A stretch of DNA of 33,589 nt from Candidatus Methylomirabilota bacterium. Lineage in GTDB: Bacteria; Methylomirabilota; Methylomirabilia; Rokubacteriales; CSP1-6. The stretch spans positions 1-33,589 of the forward strand of contig DASYTI010000044.1 of assembly GCA_036002485.1 (NCBI GenBank), in the 5' to 3' direction. Positions 1,300 to 31,284 of the stretch are shown here, in pieces (positions within the stretch are counted from its first letter, which is position 1; each line of letters begins with the position of its first letter). The notes beneath the pieces were generated by a model. It had not been told where the DNA came from, made no database searches, and was given only the letters and a program-made list of their open reading frames with translations. The position numbers were made by a program, and so were the translations under genes.

Positions 1300-1325
1300 G
1301 GGCGCCTCCTCGCTCGAAAGGCGTG

Positions 1326-2705
1326 TTAGTGGGCTTTGCCGTTCTGGCCGAGGGCGCGGAGAAAGCGCTCGATGATGCGCTCCTGGCACCCGGTGCTGGA
1401 GCGGGTCTCACCACCCGCCTCCAGGAGATCGCGCAGCGGCATGACCGCCTTGGCCATCGTGCGATGGCCGCCCGCCGAGCCCAAGTCGCCGAAGGCCGCG
1501 CGCGTCACCTCGCCGGCGCTCTTGACATAGCCGACATTGCGTACGGAGACGTGAAGGTCGCCGGCCACCTCGCCCGAGACGACGGACCACTCCACGCCCT
1601 CGGCCTGCAGCCCGAAGTCGGCGAACTGGGGAATGAGGTCGACGGTGGCCACCCGTCCCAGGTGGGAGAAGAAGACGCCCTTGACGATGCGTCGCTTGAC
1701 GAGCCCCGCGGCCAGCGCGTCGAGGGCGGCCTCGGAAAGCTCGGGGCGCTCGATCCGGCGCAAGGCATTGTGATTGGCGAGAAGGTAGAGGTAGGTGAAG
1801 GCCTCGAGGTCGGCCTTGGTGCCGCCGCGCTCGAGCCCCAGGGTGTCGGCCTTGATGCCATAGAGCAGCGCGGTGGCCAGGCGCTGGCTGATCTTCACGT
1901 CGGCGGCCCGTAGATACTCGACGAGGATGGTCGAGGTGGCGCCATAGGATGGCCGCACGTCGCGGATATGGGCACGGATGGGCTCCTCGATCGGGTGGTG
2001 GTCGATGACGAGGTCGACGTCGACGAAGCGCTCCTCGAGGAAAGAGGGCTGCACATCGACCATGGCCACGCGGTCGAAGCCGTGCATCTCCCGCGTGGTG
2101 ATCGGCTCGACGTCGATCTCGAGGATCTTGCACATGGCCAGGTTCTCCGGCCGTGTGATGGTGCCGAAGGTGCAGATGGGCGCTCCCGTGCGATTGCGTC
2201 CGAGCAGGGTGCGCAGGGCCAGGGCGGAGGCGATGGCATCGGGGTCGGGGTCGTCCTGCATCAGGATGAGGACCCGCTCGGCGTCGTAGAAGTGCGTGCG
2301 CAGCCGCTCGGCGCGCGCCCGGGCGCAGGCGCGCTCGAGCTCGGGCTCGAGCACGCGCTCGGCGAAGGCGGCGGGCGATACCGTGACGATGCCCGAGCCG
2401 CGGAGCCGCTCGTCGGCCACCACGAGCACGGCGGCGTCCGGGACGCCGGCCCGGATGGCCGCGACCACGAGCGGGAGCCGGGCGGCGGGCGCGGCCACCA
2501 CGAGCGCCCCGCGACCTTTGGCGAGGAGCCGCCGGTAGGACGGCGCGTCCTCGGGATCACCGACGGTGGCGCGGATCTTCCGTCGCGCGAGCCGTGTTCG
2601 CAGGGAGACCGAGGCGACCAGGTAGCTCGGCGGCTCGCCGCCGAAGGCGACGTGGCTGCCCAGGTGGGGCAGGAGATCTTCGGGCACGACCAGCACGGGG
2701 CGCAT
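1326..2705 (-). CDS. DHH/DHHA1 phosphoesterase with N-terminal TrkA-N-like domain
   Basis: A 459-aa protein. Residues 1-125 look like a degenerate Rossmann/TrkA-N domain (RKIRATVGDPED, then GALVVAA). The DHH domain follows, with motif I DDPDPDAIAS (151-160), MVDVQP (216-220), VIDHHP (233-238) and IKADTLG (284-290). The DHHA1 hallmark GSAGGH lies near the C-terminus. Family members such as NrnA hydrolyse short RNA oligonucleotides, pAp or cyclic dinucleotides with Mn2+. The motif I metal-binding His (usually HxNPDxDA) appears as Gln150, which could alter metal binding. The RCK-like domain suggests ligand control, as in archaeal TrkA-N/DHH fusions, but this is inference. No strong ribosome-binding site is seen. 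It heads a probable operon with the LapA-like gene. Confidence 0.88.
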   Translation of the reverse strand: MRPVLVVPEDLLPHLGSHVAFGGEPPSYLVASVSLRTRLARRKIRATVGDPEDAPSYRRLLAKGRGALVVAAPAARLPLVVAAIRAGVPDAAVLVVADERLRGSGIVTVSPAAFAERVLEPELERACARARAERLRTHFYDAERVLILMQDDPDPDAIASALALRTLLGRNRTGAPICTFGTITRPENLAMCKILEIDVEPITTREMHGFDRVAMVDVQPSFLEERFVDVDLVIDHHPIEEPIRAHIRDVRPSYGATSTILVEYLRAADVKISQRLATALLYGIKADTLGLERGGTKADLEAFTYLYLLANHNALRRIERPELSEAALDALAAGLVKRRIVKGVFFSHLGRVATVDLIPQFADFGLQAEGVEWSVVSGEVAGDLHVSVRNVGYVKSAGEVTRAAFGDLGSAGGHRTMAKAVMPLRDLLEAGGETRSSTGCQERIIERFLRALGQNGKAH

Positions 2706-2745
2706 CGGTGAGCGCCTTCGGAGGCGAGGGCTCTCCTAGAAAGCT

Positions 2746-2829
2746 CGGAGGGGGGCTCCGCCCCCCTTCCGAAGCCTCCCCCCGAAAACTAGATGGCGCC
2801 GGCGAAGCCGGCGCTCGAAGCGGAGCGTT
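2746..2829. repeat. Two-hairpin intergenic repeat element, copy A
   Basis: A GC-rich hairpin at 2746-2771 (arms CGGAGGGGGG and CCCCCCTTCCG, with one G-T pair) is followed by a second perfect hairpin at 2796-2814 (GCGCCGGC-GAA-GCCGGCGC) and a TCGAAGCGGA tail. A closely similar arrangement occurs in reverse orientation at 31374-31511. It lies in the 162-bp gap between two minus-strand genes and may terminate or attenuate transcription, although no T-tract follows. The rest of this gap shows no gene. Confidence 0.7.
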
Positions 2830-2867
2830 CTTGCTCGGGAGGGCAGGGGAATCACTTCGACGGTCTC

Positions 2868-3209
2868 CTAGCTGCGCGAGCGGCGGTAGGCCAGGCTTCC
2901 CGCGCGAACGCCCGCGCGGACCGCCCGGGTGAGCCGGCTCGCCTGATCGCCCACGCTCTCGCGCGAGGTCGCCAGGGTTTGGCTGATCGAATCGAGGGAC
3001 TGCTTGAGCGCGCGCTGGGCCCGGCCTATCTGTTCCGCGGCCCGGCGCTCGAGCCGTCTGAGCTTCACGCGGGCGGCTCCGACGCTGCCCGCCGTCTCCG
3101 TGCGGAGCGCCTTGAGCTGTTTCTCGAGCTGGGCCAGCCGCGCCTCCAGTTCCTTGAGCCGGGTTTGCGCGGCGCTCGGCGCTGTGCGGCGTCGGGGACG
3201 CTCGGCCAT
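2868..3209 (-). CDS. Small basic coiled-coil protein, function unknown
   Basis: A 113-aa protein dominated by a long amphipathic helix with heptad-like spacing (residues about 15-60, LKELEARLAQLEKQLKALR). A second charged helical part contains RRAAEQIGRAQRALKQSL, and the tail is basic (YRRSRS). There is no signal peptide or membrane segment. It resembles the helical, phasin-like or ElaB-like small proteins only in general character, and no family was recognised. ATG at 3209 is chosen because GGAGGAG precedes it, even though the frame stays open far upstream as an antisense shadow of the antiporter gene. It is divergent from the antiporter. Confidence 0.7.
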   Translation of the reverse strand: MAERPRRRTAPSAAQTRLKELEARLAQLEKQLKALRTETAGSVGAARVKLRRLERRAAEQIGRAQRALKQSLDSISQTLATSRESVGDQASRLTRAVRAGVRAGSLAYRRSRS

Positions 3210-3332
3210 GTCTCCTCCCATGTCACGCGAGTCTAGTGGAGCCCCCCCCAGGAGTACCTCAAGGCCTGCCCGGGAAGCAAGCATCTTAGGCCACTGGCAA
3301 TGGGCCAGGACCGGGGTATTCTGCGTCCGGCC

Positions 3333-5273
3333 ATGAGCGCTGACCCCATTCTTTTCCGCGACCTCGCGTACGTCTTCATCGCGGCGGTGGTCGGCGGTGC
3401 CCTGGCCTGGGTGGCGCGCCAGCCCCTCGTTCTCGGCTATGTCCTGGGCGGGCTCCTGATCAGCCCGCTCACCCCGGGGCCCTCGGTCAGCGATGCCCAC
3501 AGCTTCGAGCTCTTCGCGGAGATCGGCGTCGTCCTGCTCATGTTCTCGGTCGGGATCGAGTTCTCCCTCCGGGATCTCCAGCGCGTCCGCTGGGTGGCCC
3601 TCGTGGGCGCGCCGCTCGGGGTCCTGCTCACGATTGGCCTCGGCGCGGGCACCGGAGCGGTGCTGGGCTGGCCGCCCCTGCAGGGCCTCATGGTCGGCAT
3701 CGTGATCTCCGTGTCGAGCACCATGGTGCTGGCCCGGCTGCTCATGGAGCGAGGTGAGCTTCACTCGCGCCACGGGCGGGTGCTGATCGGCATCAGCCTC
3801 GTCGAGGACCTGGCCGCCGTCGTGCTCATGGTGGTGACGCCCGAGCTGGGCTTGATCGAGCCCAAGCGGTTCCTCGGCATCGGGTTGGCGCTCGGCAAGT
3901 CGGCCCTCATCCTGATCCCATTCTGGTATCTCTCGAGCAAGGTGTTTCCGCCGCTCATGACTCGAGCGGCCCAGACGCGCAGCTCGGAGCTCTTCCTCCT
4001 CTTCGCGCTGGCCGTGGGCCTGGGCACCGCCGCCGCCACGCAGGCCATGGGGCTGTCGGTGGCCCTGGGAGCCTTTCTGGCCGGACTCGTCATCAACGAG
4101 TCGGACTATGCCCACGAGATCCTGGCGCGCCTGCTTTCTCTCCGGGACGCCTTCGTGGCGCTCTTTTTCGTCACGGTGGGTGTCCTGATCGATGTGCGGA
4201 GCGTTCTGAGCAATCTTCCGCTGCTCGGGACCATGGTCGCCCTCATCGTCGTGGGCAAGCTCGTGCTGCGCGCGGCCGTCGTGTGGGCGCTCGGCCAGCC
4301 GCTCTCCACCTCCCTCCTGGTGGGCACGGGGCTGGCGCAGATCGGCGAGTTCTCCTTCGTGCTCGTGCAGGTCGCGCGCAGCGCCGGGCACATCAGCTCC
4401 GACGTGTACCAGACGGCGCTGGCCGCCTCGCTCATCACCATTCTCCTCAACGCCGCCCTCTTCCGCGTCATGGAGGGATGGGTGGGCAAGCTCGGCCTGG
4501 GCGGCCGGCGGCACCGGAAGGAATTGGCCGTCGAGCGGTCCGGGCTGCACGACCACGTCGTCCTCTGTGGATTCGGCCGCGTGGGGAGCGCCATCGGCGA
4601 GGCACTCGAGAGCTTTGGCATCCGGTATCTCGTCATTGAACTAGATCCGGACGTCATTCGAGGGCTGGCCGCGCGCGGGGTGCCGTGCCTCTTCGGCGAC
4701 GCTGCCCATGGGCGGCTCCTCGAGCACGCGGGCGTCGATCGCGCGACGCTTGCCGTGGTCACCGTGCCCGTGGCTGATCGAGCGCGCCTCGCTGTCCAGG
4801 GGCTCCGTCGCATGCGCCCCGACCTCCCCATCCTGGCGCGCTTTCACGACGCGGCGGCTCGCGAGGGACTCCTGCGCGCGGGCGCCGACGAGCTCATACA
4901 GCCCGAGACCGAGGCCGCGGCCACGCTGATCCGCCACGCCCTCCGCCGCCTCGAGCTTCCTCAGGAGCGCATCCTGGCCTATCTGGGCCGTTTCCGCGGC
5001 GCCATGGAGATGGCGCAGGGCAACGCGGGCCCGGCCGAGGCGCTGCCCGCGGTGGAGGAGGTGGTGATGGGGGCTGGGCCGCTCGCCGATCAGACGCTGG
5101 GCGAAGCGCGCGTCCGCGAGCGCCTCGGGGTGACGGTGGTCGCCATCACGAAAGCCCACGGCCCCGTGCTGCACAACCCGACGGCCGGCACCGTCCTGCG
5201 CACGGGCGACCGCCTCCGGGTCTTCGGTCTGCCCGATCAGCTGGCGGCCTTCCGGCGCGAAGCCGGCAGCTGA
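3333..5273 (+). CDS. CPA2-family cation:proton antiporter with TrkA domains (Kef/YbaL type)
   Basis: A 646-aa membrane protein. Residues 1 to about 390 form a Na+/H+ exchanger domain of about a dozen hydrophobic helices, including EIGVVLLMFSVGIEFSL and LVEDLAAVVLMV. A cytoplasmic TrkA-N Rossmann domain starts near 405 (VVLCGFGRVGSAIGEAL), and a TrkA-C domain occupies roughly 560-646. Relatives exchange K+ or Na+ for protons and are gated by nucleotide or thiol ligands bound to the RCK module. Ion specificity cannot be told from sequence. ATG at 3333 is used because SADPILFRDLAY begins the first helix. An in-frame start at 3300 would add 11 residues of non-membrane character. No good ribosome-binding site is visible. 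It ends 6 bp before the convergent rhomboid gene. Confidence 0.93.
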   Translation: MSADPILFRDLAYVFIAAVVGGALAWVARQPLVLGYVLGGLLISPLTPGPSVSDAHSFELFAEIGVVLLMFSVGIEFSLRDLQRVRWVALVGAPLGVLLTIGLGAGTGAVLGWPPLQGLMVGIVISVSSTMVLARLLMERGELHSRHGRVLIGISLVEDLAAVVLMVVTPELGLIEPKRFLGIGLALGKSALILIPFWYLSSKVFPPLMTRAAQTRSSELFLLFALAVGLGTAAATQAMGLSVALGAFLAGLVINESDYAHEILARLLSLRDAFVALFFVTVGVLIDVRSVLSNLPLLGTMVALIVVGKLVLRAAVVWALGQPLSTSLLVGTGLAQIGEFSFVLVQVARSAGHISSDVYQTALAASLITILLNAALFRVMEGWVGKLGLGGRRHRKELAVERSGLHDHVVLCGFGRVGSAIGEALESFGIRYLVIELDPDVIRGLAARGVPCLFGDAAHGRLLEHAGVDRATLAVVTVPVADRARLAVQGLRRMRPDLPILARFHDAAAREGLLRAGADELIQPETEAAATLIRHALRRLELPQERILAYLGRFRGAMEMAQGNAGPAEALPAVEEVVMGAGPLADQTLGEARVRERLGVTVVAITKAHGPVLHNPTAGTVLRTGDRLRVFGLPDQLAAFRREAGS

Positions 5274-7329: not shown

Positions 7330-8238
7330 TCAGGCCTCCTTGTTCTCGGCGAAGTCGGCGGGTACGGGCGGACCCCACACGTAGAGCGAATCCTCGGGGG
7401 GAAAATTGCGCGGCTCCCAGGCGCAGCTCTCCGGGATATGGTCCAGGTCGTAGAAGTACTCCGCGAAGCTGCCCCACGGGTCGCGGATGTAATAGAAGAA
7501 GTTCGAGCCGATGACGTGACGCCCGAGTCCCCAGCCGGGTTGCCAGCCGCGATCGGCCATCGCGGCGGCGCTCAGCGCGATCTCGTCCACCCCGCCGACC
7601 TCGAAGGAGGCGTGATGGAAGCCGGGCGCCCTCGAGGCCAGGAGGGCGAGGTTGTGATGGTCGGTCGTGCAGCGCATGAAGGCGATGATCTCCTGCGAGC
7701 GGTCCGACAGCTTGAGCCCCAGCACCCGCGTGTAGAAGTCGACCTGACGGGTGATATCCGGCGTGAAGAGGAGCACGTGGCCCAGGCGCCGCGGCGCGGG
7801 CTTGAGGCCACGCTCGGGGGCGCCGCGCACGGCCTGGCGGGGCGCGTAGCCGGGCCCGTTGAGGGGCGGCGGCGGGTCGGCGGGGGCACCGGGCGCCGCC
7901 TCCTCGCGCACGTTGACGAAATTGCCGTCGGGATCGCGGAGCCAGAAGCCCTCGCCGGCCCCCCCGCGCGGCGGATCGACCTCGGGTGTGCCATTGAGCC
8001 GGACCGCCTCGCGCGTGCGGGCGAACTCCTCGCCGGTGGCGCCGAAGCAGAGATGGTGCAGCCGCTTGCGAGGACCCTCGTAGAGCTGCACGCTCTCACG
8101 CGACTGGCGCGCGGTGCGCAGACGCACGGCGGCGCCGCGGCCCGACTCGTCCACGAGGCCGAAGTCCTGATAGTAGCGCTGGCCGAGCGTCTGGTCCGGC
8201 ACCTCGAGCGCGTAGTGAAGCAGCGAGCGTACGGGCAT
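7330..8238 (-). CDS. Two-domain VOC protein, type I extradiol dioxygenase-like
   Basis: A 302-aa protein with two vicinal-oxygen-chelate domains (about 1-115 and 150-270) joined by a Pro-rich linker. In the C-terminal domain the expected Fe(II) ligands are visible: His154 (RLGHVLLFTPD), His209 (GFHHASFEV) and Glu260 (SFAEYFYDLD). This 2-His-1-carboxylate set is that of catechol 2,3-dioxygenase and biphenyl-diol dioxygenase relatives, which open catechol rings by meta cleavage. The exact substrate is unknown. The next gene upstream encodes an FAH-family protein, which fits a meta-cleavage pathway. ATG at 8238 has GGGAGG 5-6 bp ahead. In-frame sequence continues to 8319 but has no similarity. 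Confidence 0.88.
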   Translation of the reverse strand: MPVRSLLHYALEVPDQTLGQRYYQDFGLVDESGRGAAVRLRTARQSRESVQLYEGPRKRLHHLCFGATGEEFARTREAVRLNGTPEVDPPRGGAGEGFWLRDPDGNFVNVREEAAPGAPADPPPPLNGPGYAPRQAVRGAPERGLKPAPRRLGHVLLFTPDITRQVDFYTRVLGLKLSDRSQEIIAFMRCTTDHHNLALLASRAPGFHHASFEVGGVDEIALSAAAMADRGWQPGWGLGRHVIGSNFFYYIRDPWGSFAEYFYDLDHIPESCAWEPRNFPPEDSLYVWGPPVPADFAENKEA

Positions 8239-21253: not shown

Positions 21254-23233
21254 ATGGCGCCCGGCGATCCGATCAACACGCTGACGGCGCGCCGCCCCTT
21301 CGAGCCGCGGGACATCACCCGGATCCGCTGGATCGCCGATCCTCAGATCTCGCCCGATGGACGGCGGGTCGCCTTCGTCGTCACCACGCTCTCCGAGGAC
21401 AGGGACGAGTACCTCTCGAGCGTGTGGATGGCGGACACCGGAGGCGGGGAGCCACGGCAGTTCACCAACGGCCCCAAGCGGGACACCGCGCCCCGGTGGT
21501 CGCCCGACGGCGCGCGCCTCGCCTTCCTCTCCGAGCGCGACGGGAAGAAGAAGGCGCAGCTCTACGTCATGCCGGCGAACGGCGGGGAGCCCACCCGGCT
21601 CACGGATCTGAAGAACGGGGTGACCGAGCCGGTATGGTCGCCCGACGGCACGCGACTGGCATTCTTGTCGCGCGTGGGCGGCTGGCAGGAGCCGGAGACG
21701 GAGGAGGAGAAGCAGAAGTCCAAACCCGCCCGCGTCATCACCACGCTCAAGTACCGGTTCAACGCCGAGGGCTGGATCTATGACCGCCCCCCGCACCTTT
21801 TTGTCGTCAGCGCCGACGGCGGGGAGCCGCGGCAGCTCACGGACGGGGACTTTCAGGACGGTGAGCCGGCCTGGTCGCCCGACGGCAAACGGCTGGTGTT
21901 CGCCTCCGCCCGTCATGACGGGCGCGACGAGGACGACGCCCGGGACGTCTGGGTGGTCGACGCGACCGGCGGTGATCTTCAGAAGCTGACCGACACCGGG
22001 GGCCCAGTCGCGCTACCGGCATGTTCGCCGGATGGCCGTCGTGTCGCCTACCTCGGTCGCCGCCCCCTCAACGAGATCGGCCGCAACCTTCGCCTCTACA
22101 CCGTGCCGGTCGCTGGCGGCGCCCCGACGTGTCTCACGCCCGATCTCGACCGCTCGTGCCCGGCGAACCTCGATCTCATCTGGTCGCCCGATGGGGACTG
22201 GGTCACGTTCTCGATCGAGGACAGGGGCGACCTTGCCCTCTACCGTGTTCGCGCGGACGCCGCGGGCCCGGCCACTCGCATCACGCGGGGCGAGCGCGCC
22301 ATCACCGGGGTCAGCGCCAGCGCGGACGGCCGCACGCTCGCCTTCGCGGCCACGGCGTCACTCTCGCCGTCGGAAGTCTTCGTCTGTGAGCCGGACGGAG
22401 GCAACGAGCGCCAGATCACCGACCTGAATCGCGACTGGAAGGGCGAAGTGGCCCTCGCCGCGCCCGAGCGCTTCACCTTCGAGCGCGCCGGGTTCACCAT
22501 CGACGGCTGGGTGATGAAGCCCTTCGGCTTCACGGAAGGCGTCAAGTATCCTGCCCTCCTGAACGTCCACGGGGGACCGCACACGCAATACAGCAACGTC
22601 ATGTTCGATGAGTTTCAGACTCAGGCGGGAGCCGGCTATGTCGTGATCTACACGAACCCGCGGGGCAGCCAGGGCTATGGCGAGGCATTCACGCGCGCCG
22701 TGGTGGGCGACTGGGGCGGGGGCGACTATGCCGACGTGATGGCGGGGCTCGACGAGGCGCTGCGGCGCTTCGAGTTCATCGACCCCGCGCGTCTCGGCGT
22801 TCTGGGCGGGAGCTACGGCGGGTTCATGGCGAGCTGGGTGGTCGGCCACACGCAGCGCTTCAAGGCCGCCTGCTCCGAGCGCGCGGTGAACAACCAGTAC
22901 ACGATGTTCGGGACGAGCGACATCGGGCACTGGTTCCAGCTCGCCCAGAACGGCCCCGCGCCGTGGGAGAACATGGCGTGGTACGTGGAGCGCTCGCCCC
23001 TCACCTACGCCAAGGACATCGTCACCCCGCTCCTCATCATTCACTCCGAGGACGACCTGCGCTGCCCGATCGAGCAGGCCGAGCAGCTCTTCGTGGCTCT
23101 CAAGAAGCTCCATCGCGACGTGGTGTTCGTCCGCTTTCCCGACGAGAACCACGAGCTGTCACGCTCGGGCAAGCCCCGGCACCGCCTGGAACGCTTCCGG
23201 CTCATCCTGGAGTGGTTCGGAAAGTATCTCTAG
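21254..23233 (+). CDS. S9 family peptidase (prolyl oligopeptidase/acylaminoacyl-peptidase type)
   Basis: A 659-aa protein. The N-terminal part (to about 400) is a TolB/PD40-type beta propeller with at least five WSPDG-like repeats. The C-terminal alpha/beta hydrolase domain carries the catalytic serine in GGSYGGFMASW (Ser520), the Asp in HSEDDLRCPIEQAE (Asp600 or 601) and the His in DENHELSRSGKP (His633). Members remove dipeptides or acylated residues from short peptides. There is no signal peptide, so it is probably cytoplasmic. ATG at 21254 is chosen because family similarity (TRIRWIADPQISPDGRRVAF) begins soon after. The frame extends to 21080 over the cytochrome gene. Its last 4 nt overlap the convergent DUF6496-like gene. 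Confidence 0.94.
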   Translation: MAPGDPINTLTARRPFEPRDITRIRWIADPQISPDGRRVAFVVTTLSEDRDEYLSSVWMADTGGGEPRQFTNGPKRDTAPRWSPDGARLAFLSERDGKKKAQLYVMPANGGEPTRLTDLKNGVTEPVWSPDGTRLAFLSRVGGWQEPETEEEKQKSKPARVITTLKYRFNAEGWIYDRPPHLFVVSADGGEPRQLTDGDFQDGEPAWSPDGKRLVFASARHDGRDEDDARDVWVVDATGGDLQKLTDTGGPVALPACSPDGRRVAYLGRRPLNEIGRNLRLYTVPVAGGAPTCLTPDLDRSCPANLDLIWSPDGDWVTFSIEDRGDLALYRVRADAAGPATRITRGERAITGVSASADGRTLAFAATASLSPSEVFVCEPDGGNERQITDLNRDWKGEVALAAPERFTFERAGFTIDGWVMKPFGFTEGVKYPALLNVHGGPHTQYSNVMFDEFQTQAGAGYVVIYTNPRGSQGYGEAFTRAVVGDWGGGDYADVMAGLDEALRRFEFIDPARLGVLGGSYGGFMASWVVGHTQRFKAACSERAVNNQYTMFGTSDIGHWFQLAQNGPAPWENMAWYVERSPLTYAKDIVTPLLIIHSEDDLRCPIEQAEQLFVALKKLHRDVVFVRFPDENHELSRSGKPRHRLERFRLILEWFGKYL

Positions 23234-23649
23234 GGTCGAGACCGGCGTCGCGTGCCGCGCCGACGGCGTGCGCTTTGGTGCGCCTGACGCGAAAGCGCCG
23301 TGCGGGAGGCGGCCTGCTGGCCTTCTCGTTTCAGTGCCCTCGTGACGGCCCTGGAGCGCCGGGCAGAGGGCTTCCGCTGCGTTCCGCGCCTTCCCGCGAG
23401 GTAGTCCTGCCGAGCACGCCGCCGTGTCCTCGCGGACGTCCGTCCCTTCTTGGGCGGTCTGAGCCGGACGCCGGCCCTGCGCGCCTTCGAAAGGCCGATC
23501 GCGATCGCCTGCTTAGCCGACCGAGCACCGTGCTTCCCTTCACGGATGTGCTCGATCTCTTCACGGACGAACTCGCCGGCCTGTGTGCTCGGCGCCTTGC
23601 CTTGGCGTCGATCCTTGCGGGCCCGCGCTATCGTTCGTTTTTCTGGCAT
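23230..23649 (-). CDS. Very basic DUF6496-like protein, possible nucleic-acid binder
   Basis: A 139-aa protein rich in Arg and Lys. Residues about 28-65 contain REEIEHIREGKHGARSAKQA followed by IAIGLSKARRAGVRLRPPKK. I recognise this as the DUF6496-type segment found in small proteins of soil bacteria. The C-terminal half is almost entirely Arg/Ala/Ser/Gln (RRRRGTRRRSRP at the end), resembling histone H1-like or protamine-like tails. DNA or RNA binding is inferred from composition only. ATG at 23649 has GGGAGG about 8 bp ahead. It lies 84 bp after another small minus-strand gene, and its stop overlaps the peptidase stop by 4 nt. Confidence 0.8.
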   Translation of the reverse strand: MPEKRTIARARKDRRQGKAPSTQAGEFVREEIEHIREGKHGARSAKQAIAIGLSKARRAGVRLRPPKKGRTSARTRRRARQDYLAGRRGTQRKPSARRSRAVTRALKREGQQAASRTALSRQAHQSARRRRGTRRRSRP

Positions 23650-23733: not shown

Positions 23734-24006
23734 TTAGGCTACCTTCGAAGGTCCGGGGGACGAAGGGCCTTCGGAGCGCGGCGTGTTCTGGTCTATCCAC
23801 TCCATCGCCGTTTTGAAGGCGACGTTTTCAGCTTCCGCCTCCGTCTCGAAGCGCTCGTCCGGTACTGGCAGGTCGATGGCTCGCTGGGCGGTTCCGGTAG
23901 ACTGTGTGATGGTCGCGACCGCCGCCCACTTGCCGTCGCGCATCTGCTCGCTCGCGACGGCAATGCTGTAGCCTCCGTAGGCCGGAAAAGTCTTCCGCTC
24001 AACCAT
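23734..24006 (-). CDS. Small soluble protein of unknown function
   Basis: A 90-aa protein: a beta-rich first half (YGGYSIAVASEQMRDGKWAA, then VATITQ) followed by a helix-like FETEAEAENVAFKTAMEWID and a disordered Pro/Ser tail. The pattern is like small uncharacterised proteins that modify or sense stress, but no family was recognised with confidence. ATG at 24006 has GAGGTGA before it. It is followed 84 bp later by the DUF6496-like gene on the same strand, so the two may be co-transcribed. The upstream 138 bp are shared with the divergent alpha/beta hydrolase gene. Confidence 0.72.
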   Translation of the reverse strand: MVERKTFPAYGGYSIAVASEQMRDGKWAAVATITQSTGTAQRAIDLPVPDERFETEAEAENVAFKTAMEWIDQNTPRSEGPSSPGPSKVA

Positions 24007-24144
24007 GGCGTCACCTCGCTGTACAGCTAGGGTCGGACCCGATCTCCTCCTCCACGTGACCACCTCGTCGCCGCAGAGTCAAGGGGGAAGCTCGCAGTCG
24101 GTCGCCCCTCGGTTCCGAGCTTGCCTGTGATAGCGTGTAGCGCG

Positions 24145-24888
24145 ATGCCGCTCAAGCGTGTGTGGGTCGATACGGCGGCCGGCGTGATGCACGCTCGGGT
24201 CGGTGGCGGCGATCAGGCGGGGAAGCCGGTCGTGCTGGTGCACGGCCTGGTGATCTCGGGCCGCTACATGGTGCCGACGGCGCTCGAGCTCGCCCCCCTG
24301 TGCCCCGTGTATGCCATCGACCTTCCTGGCTATGGCGACAGCGCCAAGCCTCGGGCCATGCTCGGATTGGGAGAGCTCGCGGACGCGTTGGCGGCCTGGA
24401 TGGACGCCATGCGGTTCCCTTCCGCGCATCTGGTCGCCAACTCGTTCGGGTGTCAGATCCTGGCCGAGTTCGCCTTGCGGCACGTCCATCGCGTGGATCG
24501 ATTGGTCTTTCAAGGACCGACGGTCGACCCGGAGGCGCGGACCGTCCGGCAGCAGCTGGCCCGACTGATCCGGAACTCGTCCTCGGAGGGACCGGGGCTG
24601 GGCTGGATCTCCTTCGTCGACTACGTGAAAGCGGGGATGCGGCGCATCCGCTTCACCATACGAATGGCCATGGAGGACCGTATCGAAGACAAGCTTCCGG
24701 GCATCGCCGCGCCCACCCTCGTGGTGCGGGGCGGGAACGATCCGCTCGTTCCCCAGCGCTGGGCGGAAGAAGTGGTCCGCCGACTACCGAGGGGCGAGCT
24801 CCGGGTCCTCCCCGGCCTCGGGCACACCATCAACTACACCGCCCCCAAGGAATTCATGACCGCGTTGCGCCCCTTCTTGCATCTGTGA
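24145..24888 (+). CDS. Alpha/beta hydrolase
   Basis: A 247-aa alpha/beta-hydrolase-fold protein. The oxyanion segment is LVHGLVISGRYM (31-42), YAIDLPGYGDSAKP is the post-strand-4 motif, the nucleophile elbow is ANSFGCQ (Ser100), the acid is in GGNDPLVP (Asp199), and the histidine is in PGLGHTINYT (His227). The triad is complete, so it is probably an active esterase, lactonase or C-C hydrolase. The substrate is unknown. ATG at 24145 is used, since in-frame TTG at 24121 has no similarity. No strong ribosome-binding site is seen. It is followed 7 bp later by the 467-aa protein gene, forming a likely two-gene operon. Confidence 0.9.
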   Translation: MPLKRVWVDTAAGVMHARVGGGDQAGKPVVLVHGLVISGRYMVPTALELAPLCPVYAIDLPGYGDSAKPRAMLGLGELADALAAWMDAMRFPSAHLVANSFGCQILAEFALRHVHRVDRLVFQGPTVDPEARTVRQQLARLIRNSSSEGPGLGWISFVDYVKAGMRRIRFTIRMAMEDRIEDKLPGIAAPTLVVRGGNDPLVPQRWAEEVVRRLPRGELRVLPGLGHTINYTAPKEFMTALRPFLHL

Positions 24889-24895
24889 GCGCGTG

Positions 24896-26299
24896 ATGGC
24901 CGATCACGTCGACTACCTCGCCGATTTCGATTCCGCCACCGGTATGCTCCGCGCCCTCGCCGGGTACCTGCGGGGCGAGGATCTCCCGCTCCTCGGCGCC
25001 ATGCCCCCCTCGCGGGTGCCGATCATGAAGCTGGTCGCGTCGGTGGTCAATCGCTTGCCCAAGCCGCTCCAGGAGCAGGTCTATATCTGGAGTGGATGGC
25101 TGGAGGCGATCTCGACGCGGAAGCTCGCCTCCGTGAGCGGCGAGGAGATCGCGGCCTGGATGGCCGGGCTGTATCCGCGACGAGAGTATCCGGCCGTCGT
25201 GGTCGGCTCGTCCAATGGCGCTGCCGTCCACCTGTGGGCGGCCCTCGGAATTCCCTGGCTGCCGCAGACTTTTCTCGTCCCCGTCGCACGCTCCGGTGTT
25301 CGGCCCGACGAGCCGCAGGAGGAGATGCGCTGGGCCGAGCCCCACGCCGACCTCGTCCTGGGGAGAAATCCGGATCTCGAGCTTCATCACATGCACGACC
25401 CCGTCCAGGATCGGCTGATGGTCCGGCGCATGAGCTACTTCCGATTCAAGCGCCGAACCCTCGGGCCCGCCTACGAGCGCTTCCTCCGCGAGTGCCTGAA
25501 GCCGGGCGGGACCATCATCGTGATGGAGTGCGGTCTCCCGTGGCCCACCACGCGCCGTGGCGATCGGTATGTCTTTCAGTTCGGGGCCCTCGGTGGCTCC
25601 AACCCCGAGGAGATGATGCACGGGGGGGAGCGCGTCGAAGCCTATCTCCGGCGCCATAAGTCCAACAGGATCCGATGGGAGCCGCCCCCCCCGGATGGGA
25701 CCAGTCCTGAGGCCGAGTGGGGGTTCGCACCTGCGCTCGGTGAGGATGTGGAGCGCTTCGCACAGCGCCACGGCTATCGTGTCGAGCGCGTCCGGTTCGA
25801 GCAGCCGGAGGCCATGAGTCCGCTGGTGGCCGACCTGCATCGCTGGTGGTACGAACGGCTCGGCGTCGCCGACAATCGACTGGTCGTCGACTCCTTCATC
25901 CTGATGGAGCCGTACTGGACGACCCGCACCCGCTCGGTCCCCTTCTGGATGGTGTTCAACACCGAGGGCTCGTTTGGTGCCCTCGACGACTATCTTCGCC
26001 AGGCGCGGCCGTTCGACGAGCTCCTCATCACGCTCTTCTCGCACGGGGTCGATTCGATCGGGCTCGTGCCCATCGAAAAATGGCGTAGCCTATTTTCGCG
26101 AGCCCTGCAGCACGCGGACTTCATCGGCGTCGACGAGGCGGCATATCCCCGGGACTTCGGGGTCTTCGTCCGATATCACTTCGATTTTTTGCGCAAGATA
26201 CCCACGCGTCATTCGACCCCGCCAAGCTTGACCATGCTGGAGCTGAGAGAGTTCCTGAATCAAGCCCGCGACCGGTATCGCGTGGCGTGGCTGGACTGA
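24896..26299 (+). CDS. 467-aa protein of unknown function with GxSxG elbow
   Basis: Not recognised. Visible features are an N-terminal helical part and then YPAVVVGSSNGAAVHLWAAL (99-118), where GSSNG fits a GxSxG nucleophile elbow (Ser106) of the alpha/beta hydrolase type. Next come PHADLVLGRNPDLELHHMHD with clustered histidines, LKPGGTIIVMECGLPWP (201-217), which resembles the post-motif of methyltransferases or a strand-turn, and a conserved-looking tail with LLITLFSHGVDSIGLVP. There is no signal peptide or membrane helix. ATG at 24896 follows the hydrolase stop by 7 bp (GTG at 24893 is an alternative), so the two are probably translated from one transcript. Catalytic activity is inference only. 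Confidence 0.8.
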   Translation: MADHVDYLADFDSATGMLRALAGYLRGEDLPLLGAMPPSRVPIMKLVASVVNRLPKPLQEQVYIWSGWLEAISTRKLASVSGEEIAAWMAGLYPRREYPAVVVGSSNGAAVHLWAALGIPWLPQTFLVPVARSGVRPDEPQEEMRWAEPHADLVLGRNPDLELHHMHDPVQDRLMVRRMSYFRFKRRTLGPAYERFLRECLKPGGTIIVMECGLPWPTTRRGDRYVFQFGALGGSNPEEMMHGGERVEAYLRRHKSNRIRWEPPPPDGTSPEAEWGFAPALGEDVERFAQRHGYRVERVRFEQPEAMSPLVADLHRWWYERLGVADNRLVVDSFILMEPYWTTRTRSVPFWMVFNTEGSFGALDDYLRQARPFDELLITLFSHGVDSIGLVPIEKWRSLFSRALQHADFIGVDEAAYPRDFGVFVRYHFDFLRKIPTRHSTPPSLTMLELREFLNQARDRYRVAWLD

Positions 26300-26416: not shown

Positions 26417-27520
26417 TCAGCGGGCCGTGGCGAGTCGCCGGCGCGCCTCGAGAAGCCTGAGCACGGCAAGCTCCTCGGGGAGAAGCCCATTGCCCCCGGC
26501 GGCCTCCCGGGTCAGCGCCATCGTGAGCGCCCGTTCCGCGTGGGCGGCGATCACATCCGGATGGATGTAGCACTTTCGACAAATGGCCACCGTATTCCCG
26601 AGCCGGCGTGCAACCTCGCTGATGGCGCCCGCGAGCTGGCGCTTGAGATTGCCGCTTTCCTCCGAGGCCGCTCGCGCGGCCAGCGCGAAGGCTGCGAGGA
26701 CCGTGCCTCCCCATGTCCGGAAGTCCTTGGCTGTAAAGTCGTCGCCTCCGATCTCTCTCAGGTACGCATTGACGTCCGCCGAGTCTATCGACTGCCGCTG
26801 CTCCTCATCGTCCAGGTACTGGAAGAGCTCGTGGCCGGGCAGCTCCTGACACCGCCGGACCACGCGCGCCAGCCGACCGTCCGTGATGCCGACGGTGTGA
26901 TGCTTGCCGCCCTTGCCCCGGAACTCGAAGCGAAGCCGCGCGCCCTCGACGGTGACGTGTTGGCTCCGAAGCGTCGTGAGCCCATAGGAGCGGTTCTGCC
27001 GCGCATACTCCTCGTTGCCGACGCGGATCAGCGTCGATTCGAGGAGCCGGACCACCGCGGCCAGCACTTTCTCCCGGGGCAGGCCGGGACGGGACAGGTC
27101 CTGCTCGACGCGCTCGCGGATTTTCGGCAGCGTCTTCCCGAACTCTATGAGCCGGGCGTACTTCGTCTGGTCCCGCACGTCACGCCAGCGCCGATGGTAG
27201 CGATACTGCTTGCGGCCGCGCGCGTCTCGTCCGACCGCCTGGATATGCCCATGGGGCAGGGGACAGATCCACACGTCAGTCCAGGCCGGGGGGATGGCGA
27301 GCTTCCGGATGCGGCGAAGCGTGATCAGGTCGCGGGTCGGCGCTCCGTCGGTCCCGAGATAGCGGAAGCCGGCCCCGTGACGCACCCGCTTGAGCCCGGG
27401 CTTCCCGTCGGAGACGTACCGAAGCTGAGCGGCGCCCGCCGCCTCCGAAGGATCGACGGCGGCCGCGCGGAGTCGTCGGCGGGAGCGCAGCCGGGAGGAA
27501 CGCGCCACGGCGAGTCTCAC
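26417..27520 (-). CDS. DNA topoisomerase IB (poxvirus-like bacterial type)
   Basis: A 367-aa enzyme. The N-terminal beta-rich clamp carries RHGAGFRYLGTDGAP and WTDVWICPLPHGHIQAVGRD. The catalytic domain carries TLIRVGNEEYARQNRSYGLT (163-182), FRGKGGKHHTVGI (200-212), AKDFRTWGGTVLAA (264-277) and the nucleophile in ICRKCYIHPDV (Tyr318). It nicks one DNA strand through a 3'-phosphotyrosine and relaxes positive and negative supercoils without ATP. Bacterial TopIB genes are accessory and sporadic. The GTG start at 27520 has no evident ribosome-binding site, and GTG at 27508 is an alternative. It lies 58 bp downstream of the UdgX gene on the same strand. Confidence 0.94.
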   Translation of the reverse strand: MRLAVARSSRLRSRRRLRAAAVDPSEAAGAAQLRYVSDGKPGLKRVRHGAGFRYLGTDGAPTRDLITLRRIRKLAIPPAWTDVWICPLPHGHIQAVGRDARGRKQYRYHRRWRDVRDQTKYARLIEFGKTLPKIRERVEQDLSRPGLPREKVLAAVVRLLESTLIRVGNEEYARQNRSYGLTTLRSQHVTVEGARLRFEFRGKGGKHHTVGITDGRLARVVRRCQELPGHELFQYLDDEEQRQSIDSADVNAYLREIGGDDFTAKDFRTWGGTVLAAFALAARAASEESGNLKRQLAGAISEVARRLGNTVAICRKCYIHPDVIAAHAERALTMALTREAAGGNGLLPEELAVLRLLEARRRLATAR

Positions 27521-27578: not shown

Positions 27579-28244
27579 TCAGCTCGAGCGCGTATGGCCG
27601 TTCAGTAGCCGGGCGACCACTTTCAGATCGGCGATGAAGCGATGCATCTCCCGCTCCCGCTCCTCGCTTGTCTGCTGGCGTAGGATGGAAGAAGGGTGGA
27701 CGGTGGCCACTGCGTGCGGGGCGAACCGCGACGGAAGCACCTCGCCGCGGCGGGCGGTGACCTTGAAATCGCGCCCCAGGAGGGCCTGCGCGGCGGTCGC
27801 CCCCAGACACACCATGACCTCGGGCTCTATGATCTCGATCTCCTTCTCCAGCCAGGGCAGGCAGGCGCCGATCTCCCAAGCGCCCGGCTTCTTGTGGAGC
27901 CGCCGCTTCCCCTGGGCGACCCATTTGAAATGCTTGACCACATTGGTGACGTAAGTGTCGCGCCGGTCGAGGCCCACGGCCTCGAGCGCCTCGTCGAGGA
28001 CTCTGCCGGCGGGCCCTACGAAGGGCCGGCCCTGAAGATCCTCGTCGTGGCCCGGTTGCTCTCCGACGAGGACGACGCGAGCCGAGCGGGGACCTTCGCC
28101 GAAAACAGTCTGGGTCGCGTGCGAGTAGAGCGGACACCCCCGACACTCGCGCGCGGCCTCCCGAAGGGAGCTCAGCGAGATCTTTGCCGGCATGAACTGC
28201 AGCGCGCTGGTGCCCGTCTCAGTCCGATCCGCCACAGGATTCAT
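27579..28244 (-). CDS. udgX: UdgX-type uracil-DNA glycosylase (Fe-S, covalent uracil-DNA binder)
   Basis: A 221-aa family-4-related UDG. The 4Fe-4S ligands are Cys34 and Cys37 (ECRGCPLY), Cys127 (IGACLPWLE) and Cys146 (VMVCLGAT). Motif A is GEQPGHDEDLQGRPFVGPAG (61-80), with the GEQPG form typical of UdgX. The insertion loop QGKRRLHKKP (111-120) contains the KRRxH signature, with His117 placed as the His that in mycobacterial UdgX bonds covalently to the abasic site. HPSSILR (183-189) is motif B. The family tightly and irreversibly binds uracil-containing DNA. ATG at 28244 is preferred because SALQFMP matches family N-termini. ATG at 28193 is a shorter alternative. It is divergent from the DnaE2-like gene with only about 19 bp between starts. 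Confidence 0.92.
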   Translation of the reverse strand: MNPVADRTETGTSALQFMPAKISLSSLREAARECRGCPLYSHATQTVFGEGPRSARVVLVGEQPGHDEDLQGRPFVGPAGRVLDEALEAVGLDRRDTYVTNVVKHFKWVAQGKRRLHKKPGAWEIGACLPWLEKEIEIIEPEVMVCLGATAAQALLGRDFKVTARRGEVLPSRFAPHAVATVHPSSILRQQTSEEREREMHRFIADLKVVARLLNGHTRSS

Positions 28245-28263
28245 TGTAGCTGAGCAGCCAAGG

Positions 28264-31200
28264 ATGCTCGCCCCTCTCCACGTCAAGAGCGACTTTTCCG
28301 CCGGATACGGCACCGCGTCGGTAGAAGAGCTGGTGCGGCGCGCCGCCGAGCTCGGCTATCCGGCGCTTGGCTTGACCGACGTGGAGAATCTCTACGGCCA
28401 GGTGCGGCTGCATCATGCCGCGCGGGCACACGGCATCAAGGCGATTACCGGCGTTGAGCTTCGCGCCGCGTATGGACCAGGCGTGCTGGGAGCCAAGGCC
28501 GGCCGGCTCGTTCTCCTCGCCCGGGATCGCGCGGGCTACGAGAGTCTCTGCCGCGTCATTACCCGTCGGCGGTGCGATATCTTCCCCGAAGGACACGATC
28601 CGCTCCAGTGCCTGGACGCTGAGCCTTGCGGCGTCTTCTTCCTGAGCGACGATGCCTCAGTGGTTGAGCGGTTGCTTCGCGCCGGTGTGCCCTCCGAAGA
28701 TGTCCGCTTTCTGCTCGTCCGTCCGGAGAGCGCCGCGCCGCCTCGCGGAGTGCGGACGGTGGCGGATCCGGACGTGGTCATGGCCGATTGCTCCGACCGG
28801 GACCTGCATGTTCTCCGGATGGCCATCCGGCACCGGCAGCGGGCGCTCGAAGTGACGGAGGCGGAGCCGCCGGAGCGGAGCCTGCGCTCGATCGCCGAGC
28901 TCCGCGCCATCTATCACGACGCTCCGGAAGCCCTGGCGGAATCGCTTCGCGTGGCCGAGGCGTGCACGCTCGATCTCACCGAGAACCGGCCCGTGCTTCC
29001 CTCGATCGCCCTCGCCCCGGGCGAGACGGCCGACGTTCGCCTGGCTCAGATTTGCCGCGAGCGACTCCACGGCCGGCGTCAGGAAGGAGGCGGCCAGGGC
29101 GACGAGTACGAGGAGCGGCTCGGCCACGAGCTTGCCGTGATCGGCCGCCGCGGCCTTGCCGGATTTTTCCTGATCGCAGGCGAGATCGCCGGGCATGCCA
29201 GGAGCCAGGGAATCGCCGTGATGGGCCGAGGCTCGGCCGTGGGGTCGCTCGTAGTCCATCTCCTTGACATCAGCGCCGTGGATCCGATCCGGCACGGACT
29301 CTACTTCGAGCGCTTCCTCCATGCGGAGCGGAAGAACTTCCCCGACATCGATGTCGATGTGCCGTCGCACCGGCGGGAGGAGCTTCTGGAGTGGGTCTTC
29401 CGCCGCTTCGGCGAGGAACGGGTGGCCATGGTGGCCGCGCACCAGACCTTCGGCCGGCGCGCTGCCTTTCGGGAAGGTCTGAAGGCGCTCGGCATGGCGC
29501 CCGTCGACGTGGACCAGTTCTCCCGCCGGCTGCCCGCCGACGAGCTCGGGGGTGAGCTACCGCTCCCCCTCCACCTGTTGCCCGAGCACTATCGTGCCGC
29601 CGTACCCCTGATCGAGCGGCTGATCGGCATGTTCCAGCACCTCTCGGTTCATCCGGGCGGCGTGGTGATCGCCGAGCCTCGTGTCGAATGCCACGTGCCG
29701 CTCGAGCGGGCGCCCAAAGGTGTGCTGGTCACCCAGTTCGACATGGCAGCAGTGGCCAGGATCGGACTGGTCAAGATCGATCTCCTTGGCAACCGGGCCT
29801 TGAGCGCCATCCAGGAGACGTGTGACTCGCTGGGGCGCGTGCCCGCCATGCCGGATGCCGATCCCGCGACACTGACCGCCCTCCGCGAGGCCCGTACTGT
29901 CGGCTGCTTTCAGATCGAGACGCCCGCCATGCGGGCCGTGCTGCGCAAGCTTCCCCTGCGCGGTATCGCCGACCTCGCCGCCGCGCTCGCCATCGTGCGA
30001 CCCGGTCCGGCGTCGGGTGAAGCCAAGGCGGCCTATGTGCGTCGAGCGAGAGGCGAGGAGCCGCCGGATCTGCCACATCCACGACTCGCTGAACGCCTGC
30101 GCGGGACGCACGGAATGATGCTCTACGAAGAGGACATCATGGGCGTCATCTCGGCGATGACGGGATGGTCGCTGGAGGCGGCCGACGACATGCGGGCCGC
30201 GATCGTTCGGGGCCAGGATGAGCCGGGTGCCCTGGCCCGGCTCGAGCGCGCGTTCACCACGGCCGCCGAGGCGACGGGAGCCACGGAGAGCGAGGCCGCC
30301 ACGGTCTGGCGCGCCCTCGCGCGCTTCGCCGCCTACTCGTTCAACAAGGCGCATGCTACGAGCTACGCGCAGCTCGCCTGGCAATCGGCCTATCTCAAGA
30401 CGCACCATCCGGTCGACCTCGCCAGCGCGGTGCTCAACCACTATGGCGGACACTATCCGCTGCGCACGGTGGCCGCCGCGTTCACCAGAGACGGCGTCAG
30501 GCTTCTCCCTCCACACGTCAATCTGGCCGGGCTTCATTGCACCGTGGCGGGTGGTGCCGTGCGAGTCGGTCTGGCCTCGCTGAAGCGGGTGGCGGCCAGG
30601 AGCCGGACGCTCATCTTGACGAAGCGTCCCTTCCGTGACCTGCAAGATCTCCTGGAGCGCGCACCGTTACCGTACCGGGAGATGGAAGCGCTGGTTCTCT
30701 CCGGCGCCTGCGACGGGCTCGCGCCCCTCGCCTCGGAGGGATACCCGTTCTCGCACCGGGCCCTGCTGGGCCGCCTGCGCATTGGGCCGACGGCGCGGAG
30801 CCTCGAGGGCTTCGTGGCTCCGGAGGCGCGCGGGCCGCGCGTGGAGACGTACCGCGCGCTCGTTCGGGTCCGCGACGAGCTGACCTACCTCGGCATGCAT
30901 CTCTCCGACCATCCGATGCGGGTGCTGCGAGAGGAGGCTGCGCGCGCCGGGTGCGTCACCACGGCTGAGCTCGCCTCTCGGGTTGGCCGCTTCGTCAAGG
31001 TGGCCGGCGTGGTGGCGGCCACCCGCCGGCTCGCCACGCTCGGAGCCCAGATCATGCAGTTTGTGACGCTGGAGGATGAGTGCGGAATGATCGAGGCTGT
31101 GCTCTTCCCGGCCGCCTACACGTCACTCGAGGATCCCGTGACGAATCCGGGGCCGTTCCTGGTGGGTGGACGCGTGGAGGCGGACCACGGGGATCTGCAA

Positions 31201-31284
31201 CTGCTGGTCTCCGAGGTGAGACCGTTCCACGGGAGGCCGCGGCCCTACGGCAAGGCGGCGCCCGCTCCTACCCGCTCAAGATAG
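28264..31284 (+). CDS. dnaE2: DnaE2-like (ImuC) C-family DNA polymerase
   Basis: A 1006-aa polymerase, shorter than replicative DnaE (about 1160) and near DnaE2 size. An N-terminal PHP domain (LHVKSDFSAGYGTASVEELV) is followed by the catalytic palm: VMGRGSAVGSLV (319-330), the DxD pair in FPDIDVDVP (359-367) and the third Asp in VKIDLLGNRAL (Asp506). A helix-hairpin-helix region (FRDLQDLLERAPLPYREMEA) and an OB fold (GRFVKVAGVVAATRRLATLG) follow. The PHP metal ligands look degenerate (LHVKSD, TDVENLYG in place of His-containing motifs), so no PHP nuclease is expected. DnaE2 proteins do error-prone lesion bypass with ImuA/ImuB, neither of which is in this window. ATG at 28264 has only AAGG next to it. 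Confidence 0.9.
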   Translation: MLAPLHVKSDFSAGYGTASVEELVRRAAELGYPALGLTDVENLYGQVRLHHAARAHGIKAITGVELRAAYGPGVLGAKAGRLVLLARDRAGYESLCRVITRRRCDIFPEGHDPLQCLDAEPCGVFFLSDDASVVERLLRAGVPSEDVRFLLVRPESAAPPRGVRTVADPDVVMADCSDRDLHVLRMAIRHRQRALEVTEAEPPERSLRSIAELRAIYHDAPEALAESLRVAEACTLDLTENRPVLPSIALAPGETADVRLAQICRERLHGRRQEGGGQGDEYEERLGHELAVIGRRGLAGFFLIAGEIAGHARSQGIAVMGRGSAVGSLVVHLLDISAVDPIRHGLYFERFLHAERKNFPDIDVDVPSHRREELLEWVFRRFGEERVAMVAAHQTFGRRAAFREGLKALGMAPVDVDQFSRRLPADELGGELPLPLHLLPEHYRAAVPLIERLIGMFQHLSVHPGGVVIAEPRVECHVPLERAPKGVLVTQFDMAAVARIGLVKIDLLGNRALSAIQETCDSLGRVPAMPDADPATLTALREARTVGCFQIETPAMRAVLRKLPLRGIADLAAALAIVRPGPASGEAKAAYVRRARGEEPPDLPHPRLAERLRGTHGMMLYEEDIMGVISAMTGWSLEAADDMRAAIVRGQDEPGALARLERAFTTAAEATGATESEAATVWRALARFAAYSFNKAHATSYAQLAWQSAYLKTHHPVDLASAVLNHYGGHYPLRTVAAAFTRDGVRLLPPHVNLAGLHCTVAGGAVRVGLASLKRVAARSRTLILTKRPFRDLQDLLERAPLPYREMEALVLSGACDGLAPLASEGYPFSHRALLGRLRIGPTARSLEGFVAPEARGPRVETYRALVRVRDELTYLGMHLSDHPMRVLREEAARAGCVTTAELASRVGRFVKVAGVVAATRRLATLGAQIMQFVTLEDECGMIEAVLFPAAYTSLEDPVTNPGPFLVGGRVEADHGDLQLLVSEVRPFHGRPRPYGKAAPAPTRSR

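Follow-up and report, generated by a model that had tools for sequence, protein, structure and literature searches.

The hydrolase gene and its unnamed neighbor

The window analyzed here is a stretch of 33,589 nucleotides from a Candidatus Methylomirabilota bacterium (contig DASYTI010000044.1, C44:1-33589, of a 4.45-Mb draft genome in 253 contigs), and its subject is a pair of plus-strand genes, delimited by translation, that encode an alpha/beta hydrolase of 247 amino acids (aa; 24145-24888) and a 467-aa protein of an undescribed family (24896-26299). The two frames are separated by 7 bp (24889-24895), and a preliminary description made from the sequence alone had taken them for an operon of two serine-elbow proteins, a reading of which the operon has held up and the second elbow has not. 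Both frames are, judged by conservation, evolutionarily real: the 467-aa protein has 27 homologues, and homologues of the hydrolase lie beside most of them. Near the pair, a consensus promoter scan placed one promoter-like site, on the minus strand, and a terminator scan found none; no Rfam family reached its gathering score within the window.

The 247-aa protein scores 74.7 bits against PF00561 (cut-off 25.8) and 71.7 bits against PF12697 (cut-off 26.3). Its full catalytic triad, already recognized in the preliminary description, was confirmed in an alignment of 25 neighboring hydrolases from 24 loci of the 467-aa family (locus L008 supplies two rows, L014 a weak 47-bit match and L011 a partial sequence). 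The nucleophile Ser100 (24442-24444, plus strand, within ANSFG) is Ser in all 25 rows; Asp199 (24739-24741, plus strand) is Asp in 24, the partial L011 row being gapped there; and His227 (24823-24825, plus strand) is kept in 21, replaced by Arg in L054 and lost to gaps in three. The signature ANSxGCQ surrounds the nucleophile in nine of the 25, and 17 keep a His that we take to belong to a His-Gly oxyanion motif. The sequence has 101 matches to solved proteins, the top ones among the best 60 being esterases and poly(3-hydroxybutyrate) depolymerases, and a PADLOC scan gave only a weak TAP-like match (E 0.0026). Based on these results the 247-aa protein is an ordinary serine hydrolase that is probably active. 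It resembles the alpha/beta hydrolase superfamily in its profile matches and Ser-Asp-His triad; it differs in reaching the cut-off of none of the best 25 of the 33 curated NCBIfam models that it touches, and in having a member of an unnamed family as its gene partner.

Conservation and co-inheritance of the pair

A hydrolase of the 247-aa type lies directly adjacent to the family gene, on the same strand, at 20 of 28 loci, upstream of it at 18 and downstream at the other two, L051 and L053; if either strand and distances of up to about 1.2 kb are allowed, the number rises to 23. In stretches of 6-19 kb around 27 family loci (the window excluded, L043 standing in place of L005), the hydrolase profile reached at least 130 bits at 22, compared with none of 20 control stretches of 18 kb placed at hand-picked positions in eight of the same genomes, where one stretch scored 57. 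Furthermore, the pairwise identities of the hydrolases and of their 467-aa partners are correlated (r 0.76; 23 loci, 253 pairs), and none of 5000 label permutations reached this value, the maximum being 0.49. Together, these comparisons identify the two genes as a conserved, co-inherited pair.

Several points temper this conclusion. Four loci (L009, L050, L057 and L058) are without such a hydrolase in the stretch covered and that of L014 is weak and divergent, so the pairing is not obligatory; the profiles for the hydrolase and for the short-chain dehydrogenase/reductase (SDR) considered below were built on the family loci themselves; all control stretches were taken from a single class, represented by eight genomes; and the permutation ignores shared phylogeny, with four of the 23 loci drawn from one order. 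The loci that lack the hydrolase are what one would expect if the genes were functionally unrelated and adjacent by chance in a gene-dense genome, but adjacency at 20 of 28 loci across phyla, the absence of controls at the same score and the co-divergence of the partners leave this explanation with almost no credibility.

A patchy family without a name

The preliminary description could name no family for the 467-aa protein, and neither could the searches made here. Neither Pfam nor NCBIfam gave it a match at E≤1, and it has none among Protein Data Bank (PDB) sequences, either as a single sequence (E≤5) or as a 28-row profile (E≤10). That profile is an alignment of the window's protein with its 27 homologues, in which the most distant members, L057 (which is without the N-terminal part) and L058, were retained. 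Scanned individually against Pfam at E≤5, the 28 members touched nine families in all: PF00756 (Esterase) in two members with a best E of 0.0095, PF02129 in one (E 0.11), and seven others in one member each (E 0.055-3.6); since these seven were each touched by a single member at such values, we regard the stray matches as noise. An S-adenosylmethionine-dependent methyltransferase was rejected, no methyltransferase profile being among the Pfam and NCBIfam matches of the window's protein or of the 28 members. A role in anti-phage defence was likewise rejected (no PADLOC match of the 467-aa protein at E≤0.1), as was a phage or viral origin: tblastn against 50,697 phage records gave nothing, BFVD contained no match at E≤0.001, and a single pattern match in viral_contigs was not confirmed. 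In the literature searches made, no publication contained the three family protein accessions or the three locus tags queried, and none combined four of six stress-island terms. By these searches the 467-aa protein is a member of a real but patchy family that has no name in Pfam, NCBIfam, PADLOC or PDB sequences.

The homologues are 26-83% identical to the 467-aa protein and span Rokubacteria, Nitrospira, Actinomycetota, Bacteroidota and proteobacterial plasmids. The closest, at 83%, is from Candidatus Rokuibacteriota; most of those outside the order of the window's genome lie at 37-59%, and two at 26-28%. Eight loci were found in genome_contigs, in Rokubacteria, Nitrospiraceae/Nitrospira, Nonomuraea, Catalimonadaceae, Actinoplanes, Streptosporangiaceae and Allosalinactinospora, and six records of the plasmid collection carry homologues, four of them with at least 80% query coverage. 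Within its own genome the protein matches only itself, and occurrence is sparse elsewhere: four of 60 genomes in its own order and four of 95 in the phylum (its own genome counted in both), and 12 of 296 in the class of Nonomuraea, including the known positive G062. This sparse occurrence, taken with 37-59% identity to most homologues outside the order, points to horizontal transfer of the family.

Some members depart from the common pattern. A diverged second copy in the Nonomuraea genome (G062 C2:1177874-1179250; L027, L050) is without a hydrolase neighbor and has an SDR gene directly upstream. L057 (28% identity) and L058 (26%), the most diverged members, are without D168, Q171, D172, R183 and E272 of the 467-aa protein; L057 adjoins a baeRF-family gene, a thiamine pyrophosphate enzyme and a COX1-type oxidase instead of a hydrolase, and L058 is similar in appearance, by view only. 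These two are possibly a paralogue with a different role. Gene remnants were also seen on two plasmids: in Rhizobium rhizogenes (L080, 6001-6246) the 5′ part of a family gene lies beside an IS21 element, with a cytochrome P450 gene and the hydrolase retained, and in a Geminicoccaceae plasmid (L079, 6001-6288) a fragment lies near IS3 transposase genes, with SDR and ferritin-like neighbors.

Predicted fold and possible resemblance to CWB2

An AlphaFold2 model of the 467-aa protein, built on nine sequences, has a mean predicted local distance difference test (pLDDT) score of 88.9 and a predicted template modelling (pTM) score of 0.91, and consists of a helical N-terminus followed by alternating strands and helices. 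Foldseek found no match at E≤0.001 in the PDB among 520 at E≤10, and none at E≤0.001 in BFVD among 390. A second structural aligner placed the H/L complex of Clostridioides difficile SlpA on top (PDB 7acy, 7acx and 8bby; Z 8.9, 8.3 and 8.0; root-mean-square deviation 3.7-3.9 over 207-210 residues), with the next entry at Z 3.9. We treat this resemblance as a lead only, because the aligner itself warns that a top Z of 7-8 is typical for models without a clear match. According to a passage of one report (PMC8881574) three CWB2 motifs, arranged in a pseudo-threefold manner, make up the SlpA H subunit, and a part of another describes each CWB2 domain as a toprim fold, three of which make a trefoil-like shape (PMC5842191). 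The C-terminal lobe (residues 301-467; 25796-26296, plus strand) is predicted to fold alone (pLDDT 87.3, pTM 0.86); its matches were all weak and generic, to an SGNH-type platelet-activating factor (PAF) acetylhydrolase (Z 5.4) and to small Toprim proteins (Z 5.0 and 4.9), and no CWB2 entry was among the 50 listed.

Profile comparison did not extend this resemblance to the sequence. The 28-row family alignment was compared by hhalign with a profile of 51 CWB2 domain copies and a four-protein profile of the triple repeat, giving probabilities of 0.2% and 0.1%; single lobes reached at most 2.0%, and when the family sequences were scanned with a CWB2 hidden Markov model (HMM) the lowest E was 0.3. 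Lobe A (13.3, shuffle maximum 11.9) and lobe B (16.5, shuffle maximum 14.9) outscored 20 column shuffles against CWB2, over just 20-21 columns; lobe C against CWB2, and the lobes against one another (A-B, A-C and B-C), did not exceed their own shuffles, so that no sequence repeat was seen between lobes. PF04122, the CWB2 family, has no match in the genome and is not among the nine families touched by the 28 members. Homology to CWB2 by sequence was therefore rejected on these hhalign and HMM values. The 467-aa model may thus possess a CWB2-like arrangement, membership of CWB2 being unsupported by profile comparison; should the model prove to be a toprim-like trefoil, that architecture was seen elsewhere, in the searches made here, only in the CWB2 wall-anchoring module.

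The GSSNG turn and the near-invariant polar residues

The case for a serine elbow in the 467-aa protein had been drawn from GSSNG (residues 104-108; 25205-25219, plus strand) in a strand-turn-helix context. That context is present in the model, in which residues 98-104 form a strand and 108-117 a helix, and G104 is found in all 28 rows. Variation at Ser106 had, however, been set beforehand as the observation that would count against a nucleophile, and it was found: position 106 is Ser in 21 rows, Ala in five and Pro in two. At position 105, 24 rows have Ser and four have Ala, and L050, the second Nonomuraea copy, has Ala at both. Because Ser106 varies among homologues in this way, the serine-elbow reading fails and Ser106 was rejected as a serine nucleophile.

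Other residues of the protein are far better kept. H112 (25229-25231, plus strand), Y93, W216, Q228, W351 and W396 are identical in all 28 rows; D12, S13, D168, Q171, D172, R183, K185, E272 and W275 are kept in 26 and E274 in 27, the exceptions all being L057 or L058. The histidine cluster of the preliminary description is present as HHMHD (164-168) and is imperfectly kept (H164 in 24, H165 in 21 and H167 in 24 of 28); within the longer HHMHDPVQD (164-172; 25385-25411, plus strand) it is D168, Q171 and D172 that are best conserved. In EAEWG (272-276; 25709-25723, plus strand), A273 and G276 are invariant. The turn LKPGGTIIVME (201-211; 25496-25528, plus strand), which had been likened to a methyltransferase, falls in a predicted strand (201-212), and no methyltransferase profile matched it. 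We take GSSNG for a structural turn rather than an elbow with a catalytic role, and regard the polar residues that are near-invariant as the likely functional set.

These data bear on two other accounts of the 467-aa protein. Were it a serine hydrolase, either a degenerate alpha/beta hydrolase or of SGNH type, the pair would be successive esterases; GSSNG between a predicted strand and a helix, the touches of PF00756 and PF02129, and the SGNH-type match of the isolated lobe would agree with this. Against it stand the Ala and Pro residues at position 106 and the double Ala of L050. In addition, GSSNG lies outside the SGNH-like lobe, the Pfam touches are at noise level, Foldseek gave no match at E≤0.001, and the window's protein matches no hydrolase profile at E≤1. 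The weak likeness to Esterase (PF00756) in two members is thus offset by a variable nucleophile position and by the unmatched window protein, and we consider this account very unlikely.

The second account, that the protein is a non-catalytic partner of CWB2-trefoil build, serving the hydrolase as a scaffold or binding a ligand or polymer, takes its strength from the SlpA H/L entries, which top the structural alignments well clear of the next entry, from the toprim-fold trefoil described for CWB2 in parts of the two reports above, and from the small Toprim proteins found with the C-terminal lobe. The hydrolase of L013 also has a hydrophobic stretch at its N-terminal start, so the partners are not necessarily all cytosolic. 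In overall arrangement the 467-aa model aligns with the SlpA H/L complex over about 210 residues (Z 8.0-8.9), and it may share a toprim-like lobe. In contrast to CWB2, the family has no sequence-profile similarity (hhalign at most 2%; PF04122 absent from the genome), its N-terminus is helical, no hydrophobic N-terminus or signal peptide is visible in the 467-aa sequence (no signal predictor was run), and it has a hydrolase gene partner; its many near-invariant polar residues suggest, in our judgement, an active site more readily than a surface for polymer binding. A non-catalytic partner is accordingly a minority possibility, which we regard as rather unlikely.

Recurrent neighbors and the question of a pathway

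The preliminary description had suggested a small pathway, and at some loci the neighbors agree with one. A long SDR scoring at least 250 bits occurs at nine of the 27 family loci compared with none of the 20 controls (control maximum 165), directly upstream in L050 and L052; at other loci the distance can be several kb. Of five long SDRs scanned, four exceed the cut-off of PRK06139 or PRK07109 and that of L047 falls slightly below both. A cytochrome P450 gene lies directly upstream in L014 and L080, a second hydrolase follows the pair in L006, L007, L045 and L013, and a metallo-beta-lactamase (MBL) protein resembling acyl-homoserine lactone (AHL) lactonases adjoins in L015 (71 bits, cut-off 390). 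Since SDR, P450 and second-hydrolase genes adjoin some loci, a multi-step pathway is still plausible. Two points weaken the argument: the SDR profile drew on seven of the nine SDR loci, L048 and L008 having been left out of it, and the window's own pair adjoins no SDR (of the PRK06139/PRK07109 kind or other), P450 or second hydrolase.

A more specific pathway would be turnover of a polyester of polyhydroxyalkanoate (PHA) type or of an acyl-lactone, in which the hydrolase would act as a depolymerase or a lactonase, and the SDR would serve as hydroxyacyl dehydrogenase. The poly(3-hydroxybutyrate) depolymerases among the hydrolase's nearest solved relatives, its scores against profiles of intracellular short-chain-length PHA depolymerase and of enol-lactonase, and the MBL protein of L015 all lean this way. 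The profile scores are far below curated cut-offs, however (for example 70 against 300 bits), the top models of the five SDRs scanned are the functionally unnamed PRK06139 and PRK07109 rather than 3-hydroxybutyrate dehydrogenase, and the MBL gene was observed at L015 alone. We consider such a unit distinctly improbable.

Association with stress genes

Downstream of the pair in the window, on the minus strand, lie a gene for DNA topoisomerase IB (26417-27520; PF01028 130.5 bits, PF21338 82.7 bits) and one of the uracil-DNA glycosylase (UDG) superfamily (27579-28313; PF03167 119.3 bits), which blastp groups with the annotated UdgX of L014 and a protein of L056. Topoisomerase IB and UDG-superfamily genes are both present at L056; L014 also has an annotated general stress protein and a DUF2934 gene, and L015 has Hsp20 and YsnF-type genes.

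We searched for binding sites of an EcfG-type sigma factor with the pattern GGAAC-N15-18-GTT, chosen in this analysis and looser than the Rhizobium etli EcfG1 motif, which is given as GGAAC-N16-CGTT in a passage of PMC3892343. The pattern occurs eight times in L014, where 2.09 are expected, and two of 200 shuffles reach eight. Six of the eight sites lie no more than 120 bp upstream of an annotated gene on the same strand, compared with 7% of random positions. Two of them form one overlapping back-to-back pair (7596-7622) between the divergent hydrolase gene and the P450-family operon, and an identical pair is present in L080. Right after this site pair begins an open frame longer than the annotated P450 gene of L014, whose start (8060) falls some 430-450 bp into that frame.

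The generality of the association is reduced by three observations: a UDG gene lies near the family at only three of 28 loci (the window, L056 and L014); the two Rhizobium loci in which EcfG-like sites lie beside the genes, L014 and L080, are closely related; and counts of the pattern in L015, L079 and L080 are not above chance. In some bacteria the pair sits among stress genes, and we infer that it is stress-regulated at least in rhizobia.

A model for the pair

These observations provide the basis for a working model, which we hold to be somewhat better than an even proposition: the pair would be an accessory module of soil bacteria for small molecules or lipids, spread by horizontal transfer and stress-regulated at least in rhizobia, to which the 467-aa protein would supply a new non-serine active or binding site. 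We predict that the 247-aa hydrolase acts on an ester, lactone or thioester, breaking or making it, as one step of a pathway for small molecules or lipids; alternatively, its step may be acyl transfer in place of hydrolysis. The 467-aa protein would carry out a further step on, or bind, the same compound, using a site not derived from Ser106. Conservation nominates D12, S13, H112, D168, Q171, D172, R183, K185, Q228, E272 and E274 for this putative site, which in the model would be carried on a multi-lobed alpha/beta body arranged like the CWB2 trefoil. Redox steps may be contributed by the SDR or P450 at loci that have them, in an order that we can only suppose, and the pathway would be induced by stress at least in rhizobia.

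A bolder version, which we put forward as doubtful though worth stating, is that the 467-aa family is a new class of cytoplasmic enzyme: a pseudo-threefold, toprim-like trefoil to whose catalytic site several lobes contribute near-invariant residues. It would act in series with the serine hydrolase and the SDR, in a pathway induced by stress and horizontally spread among soil bacteria from several phyla. If the trefoil resemblance is true, a wall-anchoring architecture would have been reused for a different and probably enzymatic purpose. With an unnamed conserved family, a confident structural model and a hydrolase partner as a chemical handle, the pair offers a workable entry into metabolic dark matter; culturable rhizobia and Paraburkholderia carry homologues on plasmids, and its regulation and deletion phenotypes should be accessible there.

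Other genes of the loci

Upstream of the pair in the window are two small minus-strand genes, one (23734-24063) matching DUF6566 at 28.0 bits (cut-off 26.7) and the other (23230-23649) scoring 23.2 against DUF6496, slightly below the cut-off of 24. In the Nonomuraea locus L008, genes upstream of the pair (1300-3785), recognized by eye, presumably encode a cytochrome bd-like oxidase. Further along the window, a plus-strand open reading frame of 1030 aa (28192-31284), also judged by eye, encodes what we take to be a DNA polymerase III alpha subunit or DnaE2-like protein; its 5′ end as called overlaps the 5′ end of the divergent UDG gene.

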